Source: Dysgonomonas sp. ZJ279
Lineage (GTDB): Bacteria; Bacteroidota; Bacteroidia; Bacteroidales; Dysgonomonadaceae
Reading direction: 5' to 3'
NCBI RefSeq assembly: GCF_011039205.1
Contig: NZ_JAAKEL010000022.1
Span: 1 to 55,324 of the forward strand
DNA: 55,324 bases
In this document: positions 38,862 through 54,253 of the stretch, in pieces
Position numbering within the stretch: the stretch's first letter is position 1
Layout of the letters: each line of letters starts with the position of its first letter
Position numbers and translations under genes: made by a program
The notes under the pieces: model-generated
What the model was told of the DNA's origin: nothing
Seen by the model: only the letters and a program-made list of their open reading frames with translations
The model's database searches: none

Positions 38862-39800
38862 TCACGACTGCCTGAATCCTCGCTTCGGTATCTTCTTTTT
38901 CTTTTTCACGGGAGTTTGTTCTTCCTCTTGGTTAGAAATATCAGGCGTAAACAAACCCAATGCAGAGGATAAGCCCAAATCAGGCAGATTGAAATCTTGC
39001 TTATTTTCTTGATTTACTGTTTGATAATCTTCTAATTTGGAATCTTGAGAATTTGCAAACTTGTTTCCAATATTGGGATTTTGAAGATTCTCTTGTTTGT
39101 TTTTTCTTTCATCAGCAATTTGTCTTTCTTGCATCTTGATTTGACCTGTGATAGAACCATTTTTCATTGTATTATAATATTCAAAACTTTCGGTTAGAGG
39201 ACGATTGTACATAAATAGCTTGTCAAAACCCTTTTCCACATTCTGAAATAATGCACTCCTATCAAAACCGCCTTTAACTGTTCCTTTGGTGGTGTTCTTG
39301 TGGTTGGTTAGAGGACTTATTTTGACTTTGTTCGATTGGTCTTTACGGCTTACTATCAGATGGCAGTGCATATTTAGCTCATTAGTTGACCTGTCACGAC
39401 TAAAGTGTATCTTCCCATAGAATTTAATATCTTCCGCTTTCAAGTCTTTGTTAAAGTTAGCGGCATAAGTTGAAATAAATACTTCCCTAATATATCGTTT
39501 CATTGCTTCGGCTTGTTCTTGTTCGGTATTACCCATTGCTTTGAGTTCCTTCTCCGATGGGCTAATATGGATGGCATAGAACTTAGCATCTGTTTTTAAT
39601 AGTTGAGCTTTGTTATTGTCAATATCCTTAACTACTTGCGATTTATAAAGATTATCTTCGGTCAGATTGAAAAAACCTTCAGTATATATTCCTTGCTCCA
39701 TGCGTTCCATATCCTCATGCTCCAAATAGTTACATAGCCTTCGGCTACTGTCTGCATTATTGTATGTACCTTTCGATGGTGGCGGGAAGTCTATATTCAT
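38862..39800 (-). CDS. DUF5712 putative relaxase (MobB/BtgB-like)
   Basis: A 312-residue protein. FYAIHISPSEKELKAMG (near residue 74) and FYGKIHFSRDRSTNELNMHCHLIVSRKDQ (near 128-154) show the histidine pair H145-x-H147 preceded by H132, the HUH-type metal triad of relaxases. The N-terminal NNADSSRRLCNYLEHED fits DUF5712. The C-terminus is a low-complexity linker ending in the basic tail KKKKKIPKRGFRQS. It follows the BfmA/BtgA gene with a 3-base gap. It is expected to nick oriT and pilot the inner element in transfer; a tyrosine nucleophile is not assigned with confidence. Confidence 0.72.
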   Translation of the reverse strand: MNIDFPPPSKGTYNNADSSRRLCNYLEHEDMERMEQGIYTEGFFNLTEDNLYKSQVVKDIDNNKAQLLKTDAKFYAIHISPSEKELKAMGNTEQEQAEAMKRYIREVFISTYAANFNKDLKAEDIKFYGKIHFSRDRSTNELNMHCHLIVSRKDQSNKVKISPLTNHKNTTKGTVKGGFDRSALFQNVEKGFDKLFMYNRPLTESFEYYNTMKNGSITGQIKMQERQIADERKNKQENLQNPNIGNKFANSQDSKLEDYQTVNQENKQDFNLPDLGLSSALGLFTPDISNQEEEQTPVKKKKKIPKRGFRQS

Positions 39801-39803
39801 GCC

Positions 39804-40391
39804 CTATTTTTTATTAATGAGATTCATAATATCTGTTTTCAGATTCTCTTTCCGCTTTCCATCCATCACTCCACAGGCTGACAGTTCCGAATAAAGAGAA
39901 ATCAGCATTAACAGTCTCTCATTATCCCTCTGTTGTATTTGGGATTGGCTATTGATAACTTTGGAATGGTTTGTTACAACATCCGCTATTTTTCCGAACT
40001 GTTCGTCCAGTTTTTTCAACACACTAACAAGAGTATCTTTCGAGCTCTTTATCTCTAAGTCTAACCGTTGGGATAGCTCCTTTGCTGTTCCATCAAATCG
40101 GGTAGCAATAGAGTTGCTTGTGCGTATCATAGGATTAAGCTGTTCCTCTTCATAGTGGCGAATAAAACGAATAATATCATCCTGCCGTTTGTTGATTTTG
40201 GATAACTCCGATTTGACAGATTCAGGAGCATCGGCAGGGTTAATAGAAGCCTTGTCAATATACTGGAATGCCAACTTTACAACTTCACTCTTTTTCAGCG
40301 AATAACGTTTACATATTTTATCTATTAAACGCCCTGTTTCCTTGTCTATGGAAACTGTGGTATATACGATTTTTCTATCTTGATTTTGCAT
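39804..40391 (-). CDS. BfmA/BtgA family mobilization accessory protein
   Basis: A 195-residue protein. The N-terminus (IVYTTVSIDKETGRLIDKICKRYSLKKSEVVKLAFQYIDK) is a ribbon-helix-helix DNA-binding segment, and residues 60-150 form a coiled coil (KLDEQFGKIADVVTNHSK). This matches the BfmA/BtgA relaxosome accessory proteins of Bacteroides transfer factors, which bind oriT beside the relaxase. The gene is directly upstream of the DUF5712 relaxase, and a row of five hairpins precedes it, consistent with its own binding site. Probably also represses its own promoter (inference). Confidence 0.82.
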   Translation of the reverse strand: MQNQDRKIVYTTVSIDKETGRLIDKICKRYSLKKSEVVKLAFQYIDKASINPADAPESVKSELSKINKRQDDIIRFIRHYEEEQLNPMIRTSNSIATRFDGTAKELSQRLDLEIKSSKDTLVSVLKKLDEQFGKIADVVTNHSKVINSQSQIQQRDNERLLMLISLYSELSACGVMDGKRKENLKTDIMNLINKK

Positions 40392-43377: not shown

Positions 43378-45438
43378 ATGGTATTTAATCAAACAGAGAA
43401 ACAGGAACGTGAGTATTTACAGCAGGTTATCAATTTGCTGAATAAAACCATCAATAGTACAGATGTGTCGGTAAAAGAACATGTCGATACATTGGCAGAG
43501 TATAAAGATTACTTGTGGTCGAATAAAGACATTGACCCACACGAAATACGTTCGATGAGGGAAAGTATTCTGAACCACTTTGCATTGGGCGAGAATGTGA
43601 TTGACAAACGTAAACGATTAATCAAGATATTGGATATTCCTTATTTCAGTCGGATTGACTTTAAGGAAAGAGAAAAAAGCGGTAAGGTTTTGCCTGTCTA
43701 TATCGGAGTCCATTCGTTCTACGATTCGCAGAGTAAGATGAGTTTTATTTATGATTGGCGAGCACCGATTTCAAGTATGTTTTACGACTATGAATTGGGA
43801 GAGGCTTCTTATCAATCTCCGGCAGGCAAAGTAGCAGGAGATATTACACTCAAAAGACAATACCGAATCCGAAAAGGCAGAATGGAATACATGATTGAAA
43901 GTTCGCTGACCGTTCATGACGATATCCTGCAAAAAGAGTTGAGTTCCAATGCAGATGATAAAATGAAGAATATCGTGGCGACTATCCAACGGGAACAAAA
44001 CCAGATTATCCGTAACGAAGAGGCTCAAACGATAATCATACAAGGGGTTGCCGGATCGGGTAAAACATCTATTGCTCTGCATCGTATTGCTTACCTACTC
44101 TATGCGTTCAAGGGGGGTATTTCTTCAAAAGATATATTGATAATATCTCCGAATAAAGTGTTTGCCGATTATATTTCCAATGTGCTTCCCGAACTTGGCG
44201 AAGAAACTGTTCCCGAAACGAGTATGGAGCAGATACTTTCCGGCATATTGGATAACAAATATAAATTTCAGACCTTCTTTGAACAGGTAAACGAATTGCT
44301 CACAAAATCTGCTCCGGAATTTACAGAGCGCATACAGTATAAAGCCTCTTTTGAATTTATTTCCCAATTAGACAGGTTTATCCTGCATGTCGAAAACAAC
44401 TACTTCAAAGCTGTGGATGTAAAACTAACAAAGTATGTTACTATTCCTGCCGAATTTATCGAAGAGCAATTCAGGCGTTTCAATCGCTATCCGATGCGCC
44501 AACGCTTCGAAACGACGACTGATTATATCTTGGAAATGGCACAAGTTCAATATCGGATTACAGTTACCACTGCCGAACGAAATCTGCTCAAAAAAGAGAT
44601 CAAGAAGATGTTTGCCGGGAATAACGATATTCAGGTCTATAAAGATTTATTTGACTGGGCAGGCAAGTCCGAAATGTTCAAGATGCAGAAGAACCGTACA
44701 CTTGAATATGCGGATTTAGCGCCATTGGCATATATCCATATTGCATTGGAGGGTAATAGCACACAAAGCAAGGTTAAGCATCTTCTTATAGATGAGATGC
44801 AGGACTATTCGCCTATCCAATATAAAGTTTTACAGAAACTTTACCCTTGCCGGAAAACCGTTTTGGGCGATGCTAGCCAGTCGGTAAACCCTTACGGCTC
44901 ATCGACTGCCGATATGATTCAGAAAGTATTGATAACCGGAGAGGTGATGAAGCTGTGCAAAAGTTATCGCTCCACATACGAGATAACCGAGTTTGCACAA
45001 AAGATTCGGAAAAACGAAGAACTGGAACCAGTCGCCCGGCATGGAGAGAAACCGCAAATTATGAGACTCAAAAAGGAGGACGATGAAATTTTTGCAATTG
45101 CCGATTTGATTTCGGCATTCAAAAAATCAGGCTACACATCACTTGGAATCGTCTGTAAAACGGAATCACAAGCGAAAGAGATAGCGGACAAGCTAAAAGC
45201 ATATACAGACAATGTTTACTTCCTTTCAAGCCTAAGTTCTGCTTTTGTTCAAGGAATTATTATCACGTCTGCCCATATGGCAAAAGGGTTGGAGTTCGAC
45301 GAGGTAATCATTCCGCAAGTGACCGATAAGAATTACAATTCGGAAATTGATAGGGGTATGCTCTATGTTGCAATAACAAGGGCAATGCACCGACTGACAT
45401 TGACCTATGTTGGAACGAAAAGTGATTTTATTCCATAA
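43378..45438 (+). CDS. HelD/UvrD-like superfamily 1 helicase
   Basis: A 686-residue protein with a coiled-coil N-terminus (EKQEREYLQQVINLLNKTINSTDV), a HelD-type YDWRAPISSMFYDYELGEASY (about 135-155), Walker A QGVAGSGKTSIALHR (about 224-238), Walker B LLIDEMQDYSPIQ, and C-terminal GMLYVAITRAMHRL. The order and length match the HelD family, which dislodges stalled RNA polymerase and can protect against rifampicin-type drugs. The start has AAGGAG 8 bases before it. It is the last gene of the inner element, next to a nucleotidyltransferase and a LuxR regulator, so a stress or resistance function is plausible (inference). Confidence 0.85.
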   Translation: MVFNQTEKQEREYLQQVINLLNKTINSTDVSVKEHVDTLAEYKDYLWSNKDIDPHEIRSMRESILNHFALGENVIDKRKRLIKILDIPYFSRIDFKEREKSGKVLPVYIGVHSFYDSQSKMSFIYDWRAPISSMFYDYELGEASYQSPAGKVAGDITLKRQYRIRKGRMEYMIESSLTVHDDILQKELSSNADDKMKNIVATIQREQNQIIRNEEAQTIIIQGVAGSGKTSIALHRIAYLLYAFKGGISSKDILIISPNKVFADYISNVLPELGEETVPETSMEQILSGILDNKYKFQTFFEQVNELLTKSAPEFTERIQYKASFEFISQLDRFILHVENNYFKAVDVKLTKYVTIPAEFIEEQFRRFNRYPMRQRFETTTDYILEMAQVQYRITVTTAERNLLKKEIKKMFAGNNDIQVYKDLFDWAGKSEMFKMQKNRTLEYADLAPLAYIHIALEGNSTQSKVKHLLIDEMQDYSPIQYKVLQKLYPCRKTVLGDASQSVNPYGSSTADMIQKVLITGEVMKLCKSYRSTYEITEFAQKIRKNEELEPVARHGEKPQIMRLKKEDDEIFAIADLISAFKKSGYTSLGIVCKTESQAKEIADKLKAYTDNVYFLSSLSSAFVQGIIITSAHMAKGLEFDEVIIPQVTDKNYNSEIDRGMLYVAITRAMHRLTLTYVGTKSDFIP

Positions 45439-45530: not shown

Positions 45531-45979
45531 GTTTCTAAATTGTTACCCATTGCTCTTTTCCTTTCCGATAAATATCTGTTATTCAGCGGATAATTTTCAA
45601 ATCTTCTACTGCTTCACCGGTCTTGCATTCTCTGATGTTAAAAGCTTAAAACAAGAACATCTGGCATTAGATAACGAAGGCGTAACCTGGATTCGCAAAC
45701 AACGTGTAAAAACAAACAATATGTGTAACATTCCACTGTTGGATGTGCCGATGCAAATACTAAAACGTTATAAGCATCATGCAGACTGCATCAAAAAAGG
45801 AGTATTACTACCCATACCCTGTAACCAAAAGATGAACGCTTACTTGAAGGAAATTGGAGATTTGTGCGGAATTAGGAAGCAATTAACCACTCATTGTGGA
45901 AGGCACAGAATTCATTCTTTCCCTCTAACAACAAGTAACTTACAAAATGTTTTTCATCAACAGGTAACGATTTAGAAAC
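45531..45979. repeat. 17-bp inverted repeat flanking the recombinase fragment
   Basis: GTTTCTAAATTGTTACC (45531-45547) and GGTAACGATTTAGAAAC (45963-45979) are inverted copies with one mismatch, on either side of the C-terminal recombinase fragment. Similar GTTACC-type sequences also occur at 32356-32363, 32461-32467 and 46044-46060. They may be remnants of recombinase binding sites. Confidence 0.6.
45550..45975 (+). pseudogene. Tyrosine recombinase, catalytic-domain fragment
   Basis: Homology begins at DNFQIFYCFTGLAFSDVKSLKQEHL and continues through the Lys region RKQRVKTNN, LLDVPMQILKRYK and the HxxR motif THCGRH; then family similarity ends. The GH motif and nucleophile Tyr are missing, so the fragment is inactive. 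It begins just where the fragment at 31549-32409 stops (FVFCCFT) and has the same orientation, so together they would make most of one recombinase. A short overlap (TCTTCT-CTG-TTCAC) is similar, not identical, at both breaks. It is a relic of a recombinase gene split by the inner element or a partner of it. Confidence 0.75.
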
Positions 45980-46145
45980 AAACCGATGTTTTGTGGATAT
46001 TTCTTTCTGAATCAGTGGTTTGAAGCGTCGTGAATTCAGAATAGGTAACGGATAAGTAACGAGTTAACTTCTCTAGTTTGCTCCGCTTTTGAGCAGGTTG
46101 ATTAGCTTGGGACAAAGATAAAACAATATTTTAAATCCACATAAA

Positions 46146-47177
46146 CTACTTCGATATATTGTCTGTATTATCGTCTCTTTGAGATTTCAACTCTTTTATA
46201 GCTCTATCGAAATCGCTTTCGTATTGCAGCATTTCTTTACGACGATACTCTTCAAACTCTTTGGTTGCCTTTTCGATGGCTTGTTTATGTGAAACTGTTC
46301 CCGCATTGGTAAGTAATGGACGATTCCCTACAGAAAGTATATCATTCAATTTTTCTATCCATTGCTGCATGGTCATTGAATGTTCTTCGATAGCTTGCAG
46401 TTCGGCAAAATCAAGATATTGAGACACCAATAAATTTAAAACCTGTAATTCTTTTTCCGACAAATAGTTCTTTGCAATTTTGACATCATCACGGGTAATA
46501 TAATCGCCTTTAAAGTTGGTCATACCCACCATTGGTTTATCGGAATCGACTCTCTCGTAGATTACTTCCGCTGCCGTGTGTTGATGGGCGGCATAGTGCA
46601 TTTTGTTTTGTACCGTAGCAAAGAACTGCCGGGTCAGATCGGTTCGTGAATCGTAATCTATTGCTGTGGCATAAATATCAGTCACTTGTTGGTACAAATT
46701 ACGTTCGCTCGAACGAATATCCCTGATTCGTTGCAGCAACTCACGAAAATAGCGATTCCCGTTTCCTTTGAGGCGTTCATCGTCAATCGTAAACCCTTTT
46801 TGGATATATTCGTGCAGTCGTTGCGTCGCCCATTGTCTGAATCGTGTTGCCACTTGCGATTTCACACGATAGCCGATAGCAATAATCATGTCCAGATTAT
46901 AATGTTCAATTTGTCTTTTTACCGACCGGTTGCCTTCCTGACGAACTAACAAGAAATACTTGTGAGTTGCTTCTTTCGATAATTCGCTTTCGTCTAATAT
47001 GCTGTTAATGTGTAGGCTGATATTTTGCTGAGTAGTATCGAACAACAGAGCGATTTGCTGTTGCGAAAGCCAGATATCTTCTCCGTCAAAACGGACATTG
47101 ACATTCGTTATTCCATTATCATCCTGATAAAGGACGAATTGGCTATTGGTTGGTTGGGTTTTATCGTTTTTATTCAT
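46146..47177 (-). CDS. RhuM family (Virulence_RhuM) protein
   Basis: A 343-residue protein with a RhuM-type N-terminus (VRFDGEDIWLSQQQIALLFDTTQQNISLHINSI, a winged-helix region) and family signatures HYNLDMIIAIGYRVKSQVATRFRQWATQRLHEYIQKGF near residue 95. RhuM proteins occur in restriction-modification and defence islands, with no proven activity. Its start overlaps the 3' end of the TPR gene by 8 bases, so it belongs to the minus-strand operon with the NERD-helicase. The C-terminal third is helical and charged, ending in a coiled-coil-like segment (ERELKS-type, DFDRAIKELKSQRDD). Confidence 0.85.
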   Translation of the reverse strand: MNKNDKTQPTNSQFVLYQDDNGITNVNVRFDGEDIWLSQQQIALLFDTTQQNISLHINSILDESELSKEATHKYFLLVRQEGNRSVKRQIEHYNLDMIIAIGYRVKSQVATRFRQWATQRLHEYIQKGFTIDDERLKGNGNRYFRELLQRIRDIRSSERNLYQQVTDIYATAIDYDSRTDLTRQFFATVQNKMHYAAHQHTAAEVIYERVDSDKPMVGMTNFKGDYITRDDVKIAKNYLSEKELQVLNLLVSQYLDFAELQAIEEHSMTMQQWIEKLNDILSVGNRPLLTNAGTVSHKQAIEKATKEFEEYRRKEMLQYESDFDRAIKELKSQRDDNTDNISK

Positions 47178-48606
47178 TTAGTTTTAAAATTTTCACTTGT
47201 TCTTTTTCCCCTTCAACCGCAGGTAGAATTTGAAAAACGATTTTGCTTCCTACGATTATTTTAGGTGTTAAATGAAAGTTTGAAGAAACGGCAAAATAAT
47301 GTTCATTTTCGTTGCTCTTTATAAATCCGACCTTACCTCGTTCATTATCGTGTAATATCCTTACAACTTCTCCAACTGAATTACGCTCATTTGACTTGGG
47401 ACTCTTGCTTTTTACAACTTGATTTGAATTAAAATCATTCCAATATTTTTTTAGTTCATTTTTTAATTCGGCAATCTTTGACAACGGAATCTCCACCTCT
47501 GAAAATTGAGTCAATTCTTCAACTATTTTTTGTGAAATTTTCCATTCTTCTTCCTGACGAATCAATTTTGAAAGAGAAAAATGTTTAAAAGCTAAATCTA
47601 AAATTCCTTGTTCCTTTAGAATTTTTCCAAGAAGAAAGAATAAATCAACTTTAAACTCTAATAGTCCAAAATTATTAATAGCACTTATTGCCATTTTGAA
47701 AGCTGATTCTAAATCATTTTTTTCAAAGTAAAGTTCTGCTAATTCTTTTTGGATAAACCATTCTCGTTTCTTTTTTAGGATAGTTTCAAGTTCTTTGATT
47801 GCATCTTCCGTATTACCAAGATTTTTCTTAGATAAGGCTATGCGTCTTGAAAACCAAACATCGTTTGAATAGTGAAAACTCTCAATCTTCTCAAGGGCTT
47901 CTTTTGAAGTGTCAAAGCATTCCTGCCATTCTCCCAACTTCATTAGGGCTTTCGTTTTATATGCGTACCAATTTTCAAAATCAGAAGCTAATTCCATTTC
48001 TTTTGTTTGCCCTTTACGTTCAACTTGAATAATGGAACATTTCTGAGAAAGAGACTCTCGGTCTATTTGGCTACAAAAGTCATTTATCAGTTTCCAATTA
48101 GGGGCAGTTTTTTTCTTTTCTGATTTTAATACAATTAGAAATAGGTTTGAATTTAAAGTCTTAGTAAATTCACTATCAAACTGAAAAAGAATGGAAATTA
48201 GATTTTCAATTCTTTCAATCAATTCAGTTCTGTTATAACTAAAGTTTTTCGTTTGGATTTCTGCTTCGTCTTCTTCAAAAAATACACTTTCATCCTCGAT
48301 ATCGCTTTCACTTTGATTTTCAAATTTGTATTTAGCCCAAAGTAGCCAACCATAAGCGGATAAAACTCGCTCCTTTTGTTCAGCAGCTATACAGATATCG
48401 TAGATTCTCAGAAATTGGAACCCTGCATCAAACTGGTTTGTATATCTTAACGCTGACATTATATCAGAAACGATATATTCATGATTTGCAATCTGTTCTT
48501 TCGAAAAATCTACTTTATTTTCTTTAAAATAAGTAAGTATTTCAAGATATTTTTTTTCCTTCCTTAAGGATGCAATTTGTCTGCTAAAATCAAATAATGT
48601 AAGCAT
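47170..48606 (-). CDS. TPR protein with C-terminal cold-shock-like domain
   Basis: A 478-residue protein. Residues about 10-400 are helical repeats; the clearest TPR is WFIQKELAELYFEKNDLESAFKMAI (about 290). The last 70 residues (GEVVRILHDNERGKVGFIKSN, then HYFAVSSNF and GSKIVFQILPAVEGEKEQVKIL) have the glycine-aromatic pattern of a cold-shock/OB RNA-binding domain. No catalytic site is seen. It begins 1 base after the helicase stop and overlaps rhuM by 8 bases, so it is probably a partner scaffold. A role in recognising nucleic acid is inferred from the OB-like end. Confidence 0.7.
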   Translation of the reverse strand: MLTLFDFSRQIASLRKEKKYLEILTYFKENKVDFSKEQIANHEYIVSDIMSALRYTNQFDAGFQFLRIYDICIAAEQKERVLSAYGWLLWAKYKFENQSESDIEDESVFFEEDEAEIQTKNFSYNRTELIERIENLISILFQFDSEFTKTLNSNLFLIVLKSEKKKTAPNWKLINDFCSQIDRESLSQKCSIIQVERKGQTKEMELASDFENWYAYKTKALMKLGEWQECFDTSKEALEKIESFHYSNDVWFSRRIALSKKNLGNTEDAIKELETILKKKREWFIQKELAELYFEKNDLESAFKMAISAINNFGLLEFKVDLFFLLGKILKEQGILDLAFKHFSLSKLIRQEEEWKISQKIVEELTQFSEVEIPLSKIAELKNELKKYWNDFNSNQVVKSKSPKSNERNSVGEVVRILHDNERGKVGFIKSNENEHYFAVSSNFHLTPKIIVGSKIVFQILPAVEGEKEQVKILKLNE

Positions 48607-48607
48607 C

Positions 48608-51466
48608 TTAATTTGTTTTTAGTTCATTAATAATATCTTGGAATGCTGACCATAATTCCATTTCAGTACAAGAAGAAGCAATAATTGCAGAAAAGAATCC
48701 ATCTCCATCATAATACATATCAACAAGCAATGTGTCATTAGATTTGTTGATTTGTATTGTATCTTTGAATGGGGTTTGAATTATATAGCCAATAGATAAG
48801 TTTTTCAATTCAAATTTTTCATTCAAATTGTAATAAGCCTTTTTTCGCCAAATTTGATGAATGAATTCAAAGTCTGATATTTTGTTTTCTGTTTGTAATA
48901 AATTTAATACTTCAATCCCAAATTCTTTGGGCTGTGACTTCATCAAAGATGGCATGTTAAATTGCCCTTTTTTATTGTAATACGTAGAAATTGTTGCAAT
49001 TTCACCATGTGCACCCTTAATTTCATATAGTTCTTGATAGTTAGAATGATTAATTGAATTTATAATCAAATGTTTTTTTGACAATTTACTTTCAATAAAC
49101 TGGAAAAATTGCAACAACGAAGACTTGCTCTCTGATTCTTGAAATTTGTATTTTTCAGCTATTTCTTTATTCAGAACAGAAAGGTCTGCCTGAATATCTG
49201 AGATATAAAAAAACTCTTTCCCTTTTTCAACTTTAGGAATAGTAGGATTTATTTCACTCTTAGAAAAAGGGGTAATTGGCTCGTAATTAATTAGATTAAC
49301 CTTTTGAGTTGCTCTGATTAATCCTGTATAAATCCATTTAAAATATGTTTCATTTGTTTTTCCTGTACCTGTTTCAACATTAAGAAATATTTCTTTCCAT
49401 TTATATGACATTGCTTTGTGGACGGTCAAAGCCCATCCAAATCGCATTTGTGCTACATTTTTGTATTTGTAATAATTAGAAGAAGGTCTAGTTTGCAAAT
49501 GTTTTTGAATGCATTTTCTTAACTTAGATATTCCTTTTCGAGTTTTACTATCATATTTATCCAATAAATTTTTTAATTCTTCATCTATGTGATATTTACC
49601 ACTTTTGAAATTCTCTATTTCTTCTTCAGCAAGTTGATTTAAGAGAATTTTAAAGGAGATTATTTCTTCTTTCGAAAGTTCTCCTTTCTCATTCAAACGA
49701 AAATTTTCAAGACTTAAAAAAGTAAGTATATGATTTGATTCTTGTAATTGAATCGTCGTTTTTCTAAAAGTTAGCGGAGTAAGTAGTTTTTCTCTCTTTA
49801 TTATTGGGTCTGAAAAATCAATTATAGATCCAAATTGACCATTATATATCTTTTTAGGTTCAGCAAATGGGTCGTTTTCATCTTCAACACGAATGTTGTT
49901 GCCAAAAACTATCAAATCTCCTTTATTTAAATCATTTCCATTTTTAATTATAGAATTTTTTATCCAAAAATTAACTTTTTGAGCGTCAGAATTTGAAAAG
50001 CAGAGGATATGAGAATTCTTATTTGATTTTAAAGAATTTTCTATCTCTGATTTTAGATTTTCCTTTGTAATTGAACATGTTGAATCTGAAAAGTTAAAAC
50101 TGAGGTTATTGAATGACTGTTGGCGAATACAATCAACAGATTTAAGAGCTTCCCTAACAATCAGGGATTTATCTTCTTTGTCTATAAGTTGAAATGCTTT
50201 TGTGCTGAATTCATATTCATTCGCTAAATATTCTGGATTTAAAGCCGATTCTTCTTTCTTTCCGATTGAAAGTTGATAGCTATCCCCGATAAAAATTATT
50301 TTTCTTTTTGAGTTTTTCAAGTCTGCGAATTCAATAAAATCTTTAAGTAATTTTCCCGAACCAAACCTTAAATCTATTGACTGGTGGTAATTGTCAGATA
50401 TTAAATGTGACTCATCCACGATAAATATTGACTCTTCCGTATCATCTGATTTTTTGAGAGGAACAATTTCTAAGTTGAGAACGTCATCGGCAGTTTCATC
50501 TTCTTTGGAATCCTCTGTTTCTGTGTTTATGTTTCCTCCATATATGTAAGAATAAATACTGTCAAATGGTAGATTTGTATTTTTCAGCAGATTATTGGCT
50601 ACTCTTCCTGATGAAGCAAAAAGTTTAACTTCCGATATTTGATTATTAAAGGCAACATCTTTTATAAATGGAATCAAATGTGTTTTCCCACTTAAAGAAG
50701 TTCCTTGAAGAACGAAAAATTTTTCATTATCCGATTTGATAAAACTTTGTACCTCTGAAAGAGCCGATTTTTGGTCTGGATAAAGATGTTCAAAGTCTAA
50801 ATTTGTTTCGTAAGTCGTAAAGTTCTTATTATCATAATCTTCAAAAATATCAAACTGATCGGCTCTGAAAATTTCTTTGAAAACATTGAAGGACTCTTTT
50901 GATAGATTTACTTCTTTATCTGAAATGTCGATAATATCTTTTATCTTTTCGAGGTAATTGTTTTTCTCAATAATGAAAAAATTCAATTCTTCTTTTGGCG
51001 GGATGCTTCCAATTAATTCAATTTGCTTTTGAAAGCACACAATTCTTACTGTGTGATAAGGATTGAAGCAATCTATTTGTGGTAATTTATCCAAAATTTG
51101 ACTTTCAACAACCTTTGTAAATCTGTCTTTTTGATTTTTTAATTGCACAAATGGATTTATAGAACTTCCACCTTTGATAATTTCTCCTTTTTCATTTGTC
51201 CATCGTCCAAAGTCAAATTCTGATTTTGCATTTTTTGGTAAAGTTATTTTTCCTCCAAAATTCTTGAAGTCGATAATACAAACAGTCTTCTGAGTTACCA
51301 GCAAAGCATCTATTTGAAGTCGACTTTCAACTTCACATTCAGAATTGGCAATAAGTAAGCCATCAAGTGAATACTTGTCAAATACGTTTTTAAGGTTTTC
51401 TGCAAATTCCCTAAAAAACGTATTTTCATAATTCTTTGAAGCTGTTCCTTTTCTTATTTCAAGCAT
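48608..51466 (-). CDS. NERD-domain superfamily 1 helicase
   Basis: A 952-residue protein. The NERD (nuclease-related) domain spans about residues 10-180, with the DxK motif in VCIIDFKNFGGKI (D66, K68) and QIDALLV (D53) before it. The helicase core follows: Walker A LQGTSLSGKTH (G255-T262), Walker B IFIVDESH (D351, E352), motif III IGDSYQLS (near 394), and a C-terminal TVHKAMSYKW and IYTGLIRAT region (near 690) resembling DUF2075/RecD-like helicases. A strong AAAGGAG ribosome binding site lies 8 bases before the ATG. It is the first gene of a three-gene operon and is expected to act on DNA or RNA. Confidence 0.85.
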   Translation of the reverse strand: MLEIRKGTASKNYENTFFREFAENLKNVFDKYSLDGLLIANSECEVESRLQIDALLVTQKTVCIIDFKNFGGKITLPKNAKSEFDFGRWTNEKGEIIKGGSSINPFVQLKNQKDRFTKVVESQILDKLPQIDCFNPYHTVRIVCFQKQIELIGSIPPKEELNFFIIEKNNYLEKIKDIIDISDKEVNLSKESFNVFKEIFRADQFDIFEDYDNKNFTTYETNLDFEHLYPDQKSALSEVQSFIKSDNEKFFVLQGTSLSGKTHLIPFIKDVAFNNQISEVKLFASSGRVANNLLKNTNLPFDSIYSYIYGGNINTETEDSKEDETADDVLNLEIVPLKKSDDTEESIFIVDESHLISDNYHQSIDLRFGSGKLLKDFIEFADLKNSKRKIIFIGDSYQLSIGKKEESALNPEYLANEYEFSTKAFQLIDKEDKSLIVREALKSVDCIRQQSFNNLSFNFSDSTCSITKENLKSEIENSLKSNKNSHILCFSNSDAQKVNFWIKNSIIKNGNDLNKGDLIVFGNNIRVEDENDPFAEPKKIYNGQFGSIIDFSDPIIKREKLLTPLTFRKTTIQLQESNHILTFLSLENFRLNEKGELSKEEIISFKILLNQLAEEEIENFKSGKYHIDEELKNLLDKYDSKTRKGISKLRKCIQKHLQTRPSSNYYKYKNVAQMRFGWALTVHKAMSYKWKEIFLNVETGTGKTNETYFKWIYTGLIRATQKVNLINYEPITPFSKSEINPTIPKVEKGKEFFYISDIQADLSVLNKEIAEKYKFQESESKSSLLQFFQFIESKLSKKHLIINSINHSNYQELYEIKGAHGEIATISTYYNKKGQFNMPSLMKSQPKEFGIEVLNLLQTENKISDFEFIHQIWRKKAYYNLNEKFELKNLSIGYIIQTPFKDTIQINKSNDTLLVDMYYDGDGFFSAIIASSCTEMELWSAFQDIINELKTN

Positions 51467-51575
51467 ACTTTTTACTCCTTTTTAAATATTTGGAAGTCGG
51501 CTAATCAGTAGACGCACAACTCATATATTGTCACGCAGACTGTTCAAGATGAACTAAAAATCTTTTATATCGCTC

Positions 51576-51583
51576 CAAATTTA
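51576..51583 (-). promoter_or_regulatory. Possible -7 box of the NERD-helicase operon
   Basis: Minus strand TAAATTTG fits TAnnTTTG about 110 bases before the helicase ATG. The palindrome CAAATATTTG sits just upstream of it on the minus strand (51585-51594). Confidence 0.35.
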
Positions 51584-51640
51584 GCAAATATTTGAGAAAC
51601 AGCCTCTATTATATTTTAAAACTTTGACTTACAGTGGAGT

Positions 51641-52198
51641 TCATTGCTTTTTCCTTATTCCTGTATCAGGTCTTGCGTTATTCTTGAGACTATCCATTTC
51701 CGTCTGCATTTCTCTAACAACAACACTCTGTCTGTAATATTCATTCATTAGCAACGAATAATCATTCTGCTGCTTCATACAAAAGAGTGTCAGAGTAAAC
51801 ACCAGCAAGCCAAGAATTCCGATCACTAAAGAAGACTTTCGGACTTTAAAGAACCTAAAATTGAAATGAGTGTCATCCGTTTTTTGTGATTCGGCAGTCT
51901 CCTTTTGCTGTTTTCGGATATGAGCAACTGTGCCTAAAGTCTTTTTGACATCCTCGGTCAACTGCTGAATATTCTTACTATTTGCCTCAAAATGAGAGTC
52001 GCTCGATAAACCAAGAATGCGAATATCACCCTTAATTTTAGCAATTATCTCGTCTTTTGTTTCTCCAAAATCAATCTTAATTTCTGACTGATCCTTTTGA
52101 GGAGTCAGTGACTTTTGTGTTATCGCAAACTTTTCCAGTTTCTTATCTAACTCGCATAATTTCTCCCATAACGCATCGTTTGATACTGACTGTGCCAT
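51641..52198 (-). CDS. Coiled-coil membrane protein of the mobilization operon
   Basis: A 185-residue protein: an N-terminal helical part (LWEKLCELDKKLEKFAITQKSL), a hydrophilic middle with a coiled coil (NIQQLTEDVKKTLGTVAHIRKQQKE), one transmembrane helix (SLVIGILGLLVFTLTLFCM, about 127-145), and a second coiled coil at the C-terminus (LLMNEYYRQSVVVREMQTEMDSL). It lies 35 bases downstream of the MobB gene in the same orientation and probably belongs to the mobilization operon, where membrane proteins of this layout follow the relaxase in Bacteroidota. It may tether the relaxosome to the membrane. No named family recognised. Confidence 0.7.
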   Translation of the reverse strand: MAQSVSNDALWEKLCELDKKLEKFAITQKSLTPQKDQSEIKIDFGETKDEIIAKIKGDIRILGLSSDSHFEANSKNIQQLTEDVKKTLGTVAHIRKQQKETAESQKTDDTHFNFRFFKVRKSSLVIGILGLLVFTLTLFCMKQQNDYSLLMNEYYRQSVVVREMQTEMDSLKNNARPDTGIRKKQ

Positions 52199-52233
52199 AT
52201 TTTTCTTTTTTTTAAGTTGTTAATTACTTCTTT

Positions 52234-53166
52234 TTATCTACTTATACCCTTGCGTTTTTCGGGCTTCTTTTTCTTTTTTTTCTTTAATGTTTCCGATTCG
52301 TTCGGGTCATAGTCCGATGGTTGAATATCGAATAAACCGCCTATGCCCGATGCAATATCGGCTACTCCCAATGCAATATTTTCCAATATGGGACTTCCTG
52401 TTTCTTTCGGAATGTTTATCTGCTGCTGTTCCTGACTGTGGTTATTATCATTCAACATCATATCCAGCTTGAAATAGCTAAATTGTCGGTCAACCTCCGA
52501 ACCTTTAAAAGAGTGGTCTCCCTTCTTAAATGAAATACCCTGTACTTCATCCGTTTGCCTTTTTAGCTTGTACTCTATGGATATGCCTTTTTGTTTGAGG
52601 GTTTCTTCAAACTGCTGCCAACTCTTTGCTTTAGAAAGAGAGCCTTTAATCGCATGGTAGATTTCATATTTAGTCTGTTCTGCTCCCTTTAGTTTCTGAA
52701 CGTTAACATTCTCCTTGCCTTTACCATAAGTCAGGTTATATTTATCCTTGAGCTGCTTGCAAACCTTTTCATTCCGATAGCGGTCATTCTTATCGGAAAT
52801 CGTCTTGCCGTCATTGTCTACTCGGTTGAACACAATATGACAATGCGGATGACTGGTGTTGCTATGGCGAACGATAATGTATTGCGTATTCTCTATTCCC
52901 ATCAATTTCATATACTCCTTTGCCAAACGTTCCATAAATTGGTCTGTCATCCGTTCTTTATCATCAGGAGAGAACGCTAACGGGATATGACCGACACATT
53001 TCGAGAGGTTCGGGTTGAGCAAACTTTGCATATAAAAGCTGTTGATAATCGATTTGGTATCCGTTTCCAATACACCATCACTAGCCAAAACAGTTGCATC
53101 CTTATTGCCCAAAACGTATGAGATACATCCTTTAAAACTTCGTCCTTTTACTATTTTTCCAATCAT
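52234..53166 (-). CDS. mobB: MobB-type relaxase/mobilization nuclease
   Basis: A 310-residue relaxase. The N-terminal MIGKIVKGRSFKGCISYVLG is the start of Bacteroides MobB and MobP relaxases. The metal-binding histidine motif is in SNTSHPHCHIVFNRVDNDGK (H106, H108, H110), followed by RYRNEKVCKQLKDKYNLTYG, a signature of the family. The middle (about 165-230) is an accessory region. The C-terminus ends in a KKKKKKPEKRKG basic tail. It overlaps the MobA gene by 35 bases, so the two are translated together. It is expected to nick oriT of the outer element at the dyads upstream of mobA. Confidence 0.9.
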   Translation of the reverse strand: MIGKIVKGRSFKGCISYVLGNKDATVLASDGVLETDTKSIINSFYMQSLLNPNLSKCVGHIPLAFSPDDKERMTDQFMERLAKEYMKLMGIENTQYIIVRHSNTSHPHCHIVFNRVDNDGKTISDKNDRYRNEKVCKQLKDKYNLTYGKGKENVNVQKLKGAEQTKYEIYHAIKGSLSKAKSWQQFEETLKQKGISIEYKLKRQTDEVQGISFKKGDHSFKGSEVDRQFSYFKLDMMLNDNNHSQEQQQINIPKETGSPILENIALGVADIASGIGGLFDIQPSDYDPNESETLKKKKKKKPEKRKGISR

Positions 53167-53521
53167 CGGAGAGCTTATTTATGATAGTTTGAATCTGATT
53201 GAATAGATTTTCGGCTTCCTGTTCGAGCCGTTTTACACCTAAAAATTTAGCGGTTTTTGTGAACTGGTTCAGATTATTGCCCATATTCGAGAGACTTCGA
53301 AGAGTATCCAGTTCTTCTTTTTTCAGTGGCTCCTTGATAACCCCATCCAAAATCGCATCATGGCAGTAAACACTAAGCGAAAGGTTTGCTTTGGCAGCCC
53401 GATGCCTGATGGCATAGAGTTCCGGCTCGGAAAAGCAGACTGCAATCGTCTTGTCTTTCCGAGTAACGGAGCTCTTCTTCGGGCGTCCTCCTTTTCGCTT
53501 ATCTTGATTGTCCTGATTCAA
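53132..53521 (-). CDS. mobA: MobA/MobC-type relaxosome accessory protein
   Basis: A 129-residue protein. A basic N-terminus (KRKGGRPKKSSVTRKDKTIAV) leads into a ribbon-helix-helix (CFSEPELYAIRHRAAKANLSLSVYCHDAIL), then LSNMGNNLNQFTKTAKFLGVKRLEQEAENLFNQIQTIINKL, the MobC-type C-terminal region. It would bind oriT and help MobB melt the nick region. It is the first gene of the mobA-mobB unit, and its upstream DNA carries several dyads. The gene overlaps mobB by 35 bases. Confidence 0.88.
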   Translation of the reverse strand: MNQDNQDKRKGGRPKKSSVTRKDKTIAVCFSEPELYAIRHRAAKANLSLSVYCHDAILDGVIKEPLKKEELDTLRSLSNMGNNLNQFTKTAKFLGVKRLEQEAENLFNQIQTIINKLSDDWKNSKRTKF

Positions 53522-53560
53522 TTCTTAATTTATTGTCAACTTATAAAAGCAATAATAAAA

Positions 53561-53722
53561 GGGTCTGCGACCCAAAAACTGCGACCATCGGGAGCGGTTT
53601 TCCCCTTTGGCTGATAAGCCAAAGCGAGGGTTTTCATGCAATGAAAACATAACCTCGCTCCGCTAAACCGAACATGAAATGTTCCTTTAGAAAAGTAAGC
53701 CGTAAATTATACACAGGCTTAC
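53561..53722. other. Candidate oriT of the outer element
   Basis: A series of inverted repeats upstream of mobA: GGGTC-TGC-GACCC (53561-53573), CTTTGGCT-GATA-AGCCAAAG (53605-53624), AGCGAGG with CCTCGCT (53623-53659) enclosing GTTTTCAT-GCA-ATGAAAAC (53630-53648), AACAT-GAA-ATGTT (53671-53683) and GTAAGCC with GGCTTAC (53695-53722). Such dyads next to MobA/MobB genes are the usual form of Bacteroides oriT regions. The nick position cannot be read. Confidence 0.6.
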
Positions 53723-53746
53723 CCTTAAATTGGCAGAAGCTAACCA

Positions 53747-54253
53747 TTACAGCTTCTTCCACATTTCCACATCATCGTTGTATATATCCAGATGATGCCG
53801 GGCAAGGTTCTCAATGAAACCCGATACACTCCGCCCTCTTCCTCCCAAGCGGTGGACAATCTCGTCTATCCTGTCCCGTACCTCACGGCTGACAAATACC
53901 GGCTTGCGGTCTTCGAGCTTGGGAACAGTAAGAAATGTTCCACGATACTCATCAAGCGATTCTTTCCGTTGTTTGGAAACTACTGTTGGGACAGGTGGTT
54001 GTTCTACTTCGGTTGATACTCCCGCTTCGGTTTGTAGACTATCCATAGTATCGTCCGTTTCGTTCGGTTGGATAGTTTCATCAGCACCGGTACTATTTCC
54101 AGCAATTTCTCTTTCAACCGCCTTTTGAAATTCTGCTTCCGCGTCATCGCTGGCGGAATTCGTTTCCCTTGTTTTGACAAATCCCGAAGTCAGTAGAAAA
54201 TCGTCGGGAATTTGAACTTTGCCTTTTCTGCTTTCTGTTTGCTTACTATTCAT
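53747..54253 (-). CDS. DUF3408 family protein
   Basis: A 168-residue protein whose C-terminal third matches DUF3408: KPVFVSREVRDRIDEIVHRLGGRGRSVSGFIENLARHHLDIYNDDVEMW. The N-terminal two thirds is low-complexity and acidic (ADETIQPNETDDTMDSLQTEAGV). DUF3408 proteins occur in Bacteroides conjugative elements, usually near a ParA-type gene. The C-terminal domain resembles a ribbon-helix-helix DNA-binding fold. Here the DNA upstream (54254-54923) holds no recognisable ParA. The gene lies 225 bases before mobA, on the same strand. Role uncertain, perhaps maintenance or relaxosome control. Confidence 0.8.
   Translation of the reverse strand: MNSKQTESRKGKVQIPDDFLLTSGFVKTRETNSASDDAEAEFQKAVEREIAGNSTGADETIQPNETDDTMDSLQTEAGVSTEVEQPPVPTVVSKQRKESLDEYRGTFLTVPKLEDRKPVFVSREVRDRIDEIVHRLGGRGRSVSGFIENLARHHLDIYNDDVEMWKKL

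Follow-up and report, generated by a model that had tools for sequence, protein, structure and literature searches.

Introduction

The closest described relatives of the locus analysed here are the TOTE systems, named for their four parts (TPR, OB, TBP and Effector; the expansion is given in the accessible part of PMC12458937, which cites Aravind, Iyer et al. 2022), and the PADLOC entry PDC-M16, where PDC stands for putative defence candidate, a category whose members are, according to the accessible part of PMC12988326, mostly without experimental validation. The literature that we searched contained no experimental test of TOTE systems and no paper naming PDC-M16. The locus lies in a stretch of 55,324 nucleotides (nt) from Dysgonomonas sp. 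ZJ279 (NZ_JAAKEL010000022.1 of assembly GCF_011039205.1, positions 1 to 55,324), hereafter the window. Two of its genes, encoding a nuclease-helicase (HEL) and a tetratricopeptide repeat protein (TPR), probably constitute a TOTE conflict system of just two genes, carried by a mobilizable element as a self-contained unit in its cargo slot; their products would directly degrade invader DNA. The families of the mobilization genes make Bacteroidota the most likely host of the element. The two genes and the one that follows them are:

48608-51466, (-) strand: HEL, 952 residues; NERD, superfamily 1 (SF1) helicase and two TBP-TOTE domains; TOTE effector / PDC-M16A
47170-48606, (-) strand: TPR, 478 residues; tetratricopeptide solenoid with a C-terminal cold-shock/OB domain; TOTE TPR-OB partner
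46146-47177, (-) strand: RhuM, 343 residues; PF13310, PADLOC PDC-S05; a separate neighbour outside the TOTE pair

All four parts of a TOTE system (TPR protein, OB/cold-shock domain, TBP-like domain, here as a pair, and effector domain) are present in HEL and TPR. Set against the account in the accessible part of PMC12458937, the window differs in that its effector is a NERD domain fused to an SF1 helicase and the TBP domains, and in that the partner has one recognisable cold-shock domain. HEL matches PDC-M16A (PDLC04474) over nearly its full length (E 1.4e-92, residues 13-942 to model positions 15-909 of 917). TPR, encoded beside this PDC-M16A gene, is weak on PDC-M16B and better caught by PDLC01170, whereas the partners of three relatives (L081, L128 and L009) are strong PDC-M16B matches and that of L002 is weak. 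The pair is thus a further member of an already catalogued, computationally defined candidate class, and the claim of an earlier sequence-only reading of this DNA, that no named system fits, was mistaken for HEL and TPR.

Two other known types invite comparison. TALON systems likewise bring together a NERD nuclease, a TPR-cold shock protein and TBP, but in the account given by the accessible part of PMC12458937 their helicase is typically an ARMADA-like YprA protein and the remaining parts are additional proteins, rather than an SF1 helicase being fused to NERD and TBP; HEL showed no YprA-family helicase, its matches being to AAA_30 and UvrD_C_2 (SF1) and its best folds Dda, Pif1 and RecD2. 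Type I restriction-modification systems are likewise nuclease-translocase cargo, and occupy the same slot in two sister elements described below, but the TOTE pair is without a methylase or specificity domain.

Results

The gene calls of the sequence-only reading hold in every coordinate: three minus-strand genes, with HEL and TPR separated by 1 base (48607) and TPR and RhuM overlapping by 8 bases (47170-47177), and with lengths of 952 and 478 residues for the first two. The HEL-TPR pair spans about 4.3 kb. The NERD domain of HEL was recovered at residues 21-125 (PF08378, E 5.8e-8, 33.7 bits against a cut-off of 22.1), and an SF1 helicase region at approximately residues 228-728, where the matching Pfam models (UvrD_C_2, AAA_30, ResIII and AAA_19) all score slightly under their curated cut-offs. 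The earlier description of HEL as a NERD-helicase with a nuclease DxK and Walker A and B motifs stands, although it missed two tandem TBP-TOTE domains (PF22721, E 5.8e-28, 96.8 bits against a cut-off of 27) near the C-terminus:

48899-49123, (-) strand: first TBP-TOTE domain (PF22721), HEL residues 782-856; modelled as a helix-strands-helix unit
48629-48853, (-) strand: second TBP-TOTE domain (PF22721), HEL residues 872-946; modelled as a repeat of the first unit

The residues expected to be catalytic (D53, D66-F-K68, G255-T-x-x-S-G-K261, D351-E352 and R718) show no variation among the homologues aligned (14 of 14). Dda was the best fold for the modelled HEL, with DSH9, Pif1 and RecD2 also found; the VIA-align rows for HEL fall within residues 182-699, that is, within the helicase region alone, with the TBP part uncovered, and the lack of any TBP fold among them is therefore uninformative. 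A sequence profile of HEL also reaches Dda among solved structures, and single-sequence searches with HEL or with TPR matched no solved structure.

The OB/cold-shock end that had been proposed for TPR was borne out by a match to PDLC01170, a TPR plus cold shock model (E 3.1e-43), and by an AlphaFold model (mean predicted local distance difference test score, pLDDT, 79.8) with a five-stranded C-terminal part at residues 410-477. The TPR family profile matches UNR cold-shock chains weakly (E 0.15). Among relatives, the Pfam S1CSD-TOTE models match 18 of 22 partner pieces, as well as the second piece of L014. The partners in L009:10864-13419 and L064:5646-8252, whose helicases are 74% and 42% identical to HEL, are long (851-868 residues) and carry several S1/CSD-TOTE domains instead of the 478-residue form, which represents partner exchange within the family.

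Relatives of the pair were drawn from four sources: a search of genome contigs (20 loci); 296 genomes of the phylum, with a PF22721 match in 15 (over the cut-off in 12); 393 genomes of the order, with a TBP-TOTE match in 14 (over the cut-off in 11); and a plasmid search returning 51 records, all below 60% identity, two of which were opened. Both genome draws include the genome of the window itself. After removal of duplicates and fragments, 35 distinct loci remained. For L001-L013 the basis of counting was resemblance to HEL (46-75%, over the whole length save in L010 and L012) rather than PF22721, and L065 was counted despite a PF22721 score of 25.5 bits, under the cut-off. Outside the count are the window itself (L021, L036, L053 and L068); duplicates (L057, equal to L002; L060, equal to L008; L133, equal to L014; and L015, 99% identical to L014); shorter copies of loci already counted (L025, the rest of L031-L053, L083-L092 and L096, with L091 being the fragment L022); contig-end fragments of a TOTE helicase or of the start of HEL (L016, L017, L020 and L022); other helicases not taken as TOTE (L019, L023, L024 and L026-L030); L066 and L067, where PF22721 is below the cut-off and there is no long helicase; and G077, G456, G522 and G706 of the order draw, whose regions were not fetched.

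A TPR/OB partner is the next downstream gene on the same strand in 33 of the 35 loci, including one on a Klebsiella plasmid and one on a Sulfurospirillum plasmid, and the pairing persists down to about 22% helicase identity (L058 and L059). Where both genes are unbroken, they are separated by -25 to +17 nt. The two loci with no visible partner run into contig ends: L010 stops inside the helicase, and L062 stops 425 bases past it, with no open reading frame of at least 90 residues in those bases. Partners were identified with a hidden Markov model built from the window TPR (13 loci), with Pfam DUF7017 or S1CSD-TOTE (18 loci), by tblastn of 55 residues (L001) and by Pfam on the second of two overlapping frames (L014).

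The N-terminus of the helicase varies. NERD is replaced by a DUF4145 domain in the Klebsiella plasmid pMB7868_3, and in three loci of the same order as the window (L128, L130 and L132) the helicase is without the N-terminal ~220 residues that bear NERD. The N-terminal part is thus the variable one among the compared sequences, with the helicase, TBP and TPR-OB parts constant. The DUF4145-bearing pair lies at L081:7284-11644, on an IncFII plasmid of Klebsiella pneumoniae; of the 51 plasmid records with helicase matches, 23 are from Klebsiella and 21 from Escherichia. Directly upstream of the three shortened helicases is a protein of 566-612 residues with an inactive receiver (iREC) domain (L128:11583-13283, L132:11177-13015 and L130:5459-7201), which no PADLOC model matches and which is possibly a separate sensor. 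The helicase loci L014 and L015 are 99% identical on contigs labelled Bacteroidales and Ignavibacteria, reflecting either a recent transfer or a misbinned contig. A search of 50,697 phage records gave one distant helicase match, and a close-relative search of viral contigs gave none.

Several relatives have neighbours of interest: type I restriction genes (L064), an AlwI-like endonuclease with a methylase (L004), a Cas10/Cmr2 protein (L135) and a Cas6 protein 4.4 kb from the TOTE locus (L065). These neighbours lie within about 4.5 kb, come from a set of 10 proteins picked by eye, and illustrate the surroundings without giving a frequency.

The pair lies, as the sequence-only reading had it, in a mobile element with mobilization genes on both sides (52234-53521 and 38862-40391). 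A DNA search of 101 genomes of the family identified sister elements, the closest of which, in G018 (L157), shares its mobilization genes with window positions 51726-53975 at 80% identity and a RhuM stretch with positions 45891-47168 at 87% identity. The slot and its border are:

47169-51725, no strand: cargo stretch unlike the G018 sister element, where type I restriction genes and three or more others lie, from DNA comparison and Pfam assignment of the G018 genes
51641-52198, (-) strand: 185-residue gene of the mobilization backbone, forming the other border of the slot; common to G018, G029, G048 and G011 up to 51726-51735
52234-53166, (-) strand: relaxase, MobA/VirD2-like, mobilization backbone, by family match
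53132-53521, (-) strand: NikA/MbpA-like accessory protein, mobilization backbone, by family match

The slot could be spanned in four sister elements (G018, G029, G048 and G011:C2). At the site of HEL and TPR, G018 has HsdM, HsdS, one other gene and HsdR, then two other genes. The slot of G029 holds HsdR, an AAA_13 protein, HsdM, HsdS and a recombinase-like frame (the last assigned by eye), with no RhuM up to the element end when read across the contig ends of a contig assumed to be circular. That of G048 (L162:4562-14563) holds a resolvase, an Eco57I-like methylase, a PLD-SNF2 helicase and an AbiEi/AbiEii pair, and no RhuM; in G011:C2 the slot is taken up by genes for SusC/SusD-like transport and for a family 20 glycosyl hydrolase, again with no RhuM. 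Since defence genes fill the slot in three of the four elements and polysaccharide-use genes in the fourth, it is a general cargo bay, and the idea that it is reserved for defence can be set aside on the content of G011:C2. RhuM is likewise no constant part of the element, being present only in G018 of the four, and among the elements spanned it accompanies the G018 and window cargo only.

RhuM, correctly named in the sequence-only reading, is a full-length member of its family (PF13310, E 3.7e-107; PADLOC PDC-S05), but its relation to the pair is different from the one proposed. Profile searches found RhuM in 0 of the 27 TOTE loci (of 35) whose sequence extends 3.6 kb or more beyond the partner on the downstream side, and it is common in the order (127 of 198 genomes, with up to 12 matches in one genome). 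Guanine-plus-cytosine (GC) content is 29.2% in HEL and 30.8% in TPR against 39.8% in RhuM, and at third positions 22-24% against 40%. In the four strongly matching genomes (G018, G014, G052 and G777), DNA homology to the RhuM region ends at 47168 in every case, and the first letters of the RhuM frame are ATG-(TCC/CCT/CCC)-AACGATAAA, as against ATGAATAAAAACGATAAA in the window, where the letters ATGAATAA close the TPR gene. Because homology stops at 47168 and the RhuM start contains letters of the TPR end, the 8-base overlap lies at a breakpoint, and RhuM is, on this comparison, a separate gene whose start was fused to the end of TPR by cargo exchange.

Promoter and terminator scans of the locus gave counts close to those of shuffled sequences (28 against 24.0, sd 4.6, and 4 against 2.9, sd 1.7, respectively). 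The mobilization genes on the far side form a second set on the (-) strand (DUF5712 at 38862-39800 and a BfmA/BtgA family gene at 39804-40391), which suggests that two mobile elements may adjoin each other here. A tyrosine recombinase remnant of 141 residues (45550-45975, (+) strand; Phage_integrase, E 1.1e-4, below the cut-off) sits at the RhuM-side limit of homology with the sister elements, and in the G018 element there is an integrase at L157:3-827. Adjoining the element is a second helicase-like protein, a HelD-like RNA polymerase recycling motor (43378-45438, (+) strand; NF041464, 529 bits against a cut-off of 419).

Discussion

What can be read from the letters themselves is the domain content of HEL and TPR, their pairing in distant genomes, their place in an exchangeable slot that holds type I restriction in the closest sister element, and the position of RhuM outside the conserved unit. 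The sequence-only reading had proposed a defence operon of three genes and a check of their adjacency across genomes. HEL and TPR bear this out as a conserved candidate conflict module on a mobile element that stays paired elsewhere, while RhuM, on its 0 of 27 and on the G018 element, falls away as a member.

We propose that the TPR solenoid would hold the helicase, and that the cold-shock/OB domain, together with the pair of TBP-like domains, would attach to some nucleic-acid feature that marks incoming DNA, for instance its being single-stranded, transcribed or replicating. This binding would license the ATP-driven SF1B helicase to run along invader DNA. The relatives Dda, Pif1 and RecD2 move 5'-to-3', and by fold kinship with them the direction is probably the same. 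The helicase would then feed the DNA to the NERD PD-(D/E)xK nuclease, and phage or plasmid DNA would be degraded directly, with no protective methylase.

Several observations weigh against this proposal. The HEL model is poor (mean pLDDT 55.7), with the NERD part mostly below 50. The Pfam S1CSD-TOTE models do not match the window TPR at E 0.1, and the PDC-M16B match to it is weak (E 6.2e-7) and confined to residues 249-406. Many relatives are without the N-terminal NERD-bearing part, and NERD cleavage therefore cannot explain how every member works. The non-defence cargo of G011:C2 makes slot sharing weak evidence of function, and the literature searched contained no report of activity for a pair of this type.

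The chief rival, which we consider unlikely, is an abortive system in which sensing of an invader turns NERD to the destruction of the cell's own DNA or RNA, with cell death as the result. The pair has no methylase and cold-shock domains often bind RNA, as would suit such a system. The accessible part of PMC12458937 also treats TOTE as a family of conflict systems that have an effector. However, the effector here is no small toxin but a fusion of helicase and nuclease, and at the same site the closest sister element carries a direct restriction system, which is suggestive only.

We regard it as decidedly improbable that HEL and TPR serve the element in replication, transfer or stability rather than defence. 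The pair does sit among mobilization genes, distant helicase relatives occur on plasmids (the 51 records), and one sister element carries cargo other than defence genes; yet none of the four sister elements has the pair, and all of them retain the mobilization backbone, and several relatives lie near restriction or CRISPR genes.

As for RhuM, the accessible part of PMC3710099 puts it forward as a toxin domain of multilevel defence loci that also contain restriction genes, and that of PMC12629846 lists it among toxins. It adjoins restriction genes in L157 and L159, and in the latter (G052) a related RhuM follows the HsdR gene. Conceivably, though we give the idea very little credence, it could be a backup effector guarding whichever DNA-targeting system is plugged into the slot, with the exchange joining the final stop codon of the cargo to the start of RhuM and so coupling its translation to the new cargo; its neighbours would then be type I restriction (G018), HsdR (L159) and TOTE (the window), and the slots of G029, G048 and G011, which hold no such RhuM, speak against it. 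That HEL, TPR and RhuM form one operon-encoded system with RhuM as third component, as their common strand, the overlap, the toxin proposal and the restriction neighbours might suggest, can be dismissed as scarcely credible, since RhuM is unlinked to TOTE elsewhere, stands beside type I restriction in G018, and begins at a break in homology and GC content.

The overlap of TPR and RhuM illustrates that overlapping genes are not proof of one system, as this one falls at a recombination breakpoint. The favoured reading of HEL and TPR as a direct TOTE conflict system concerns a compact pair with intact catalytic residues, at the site of a sister restriction system, and its function is therefore directly testable.

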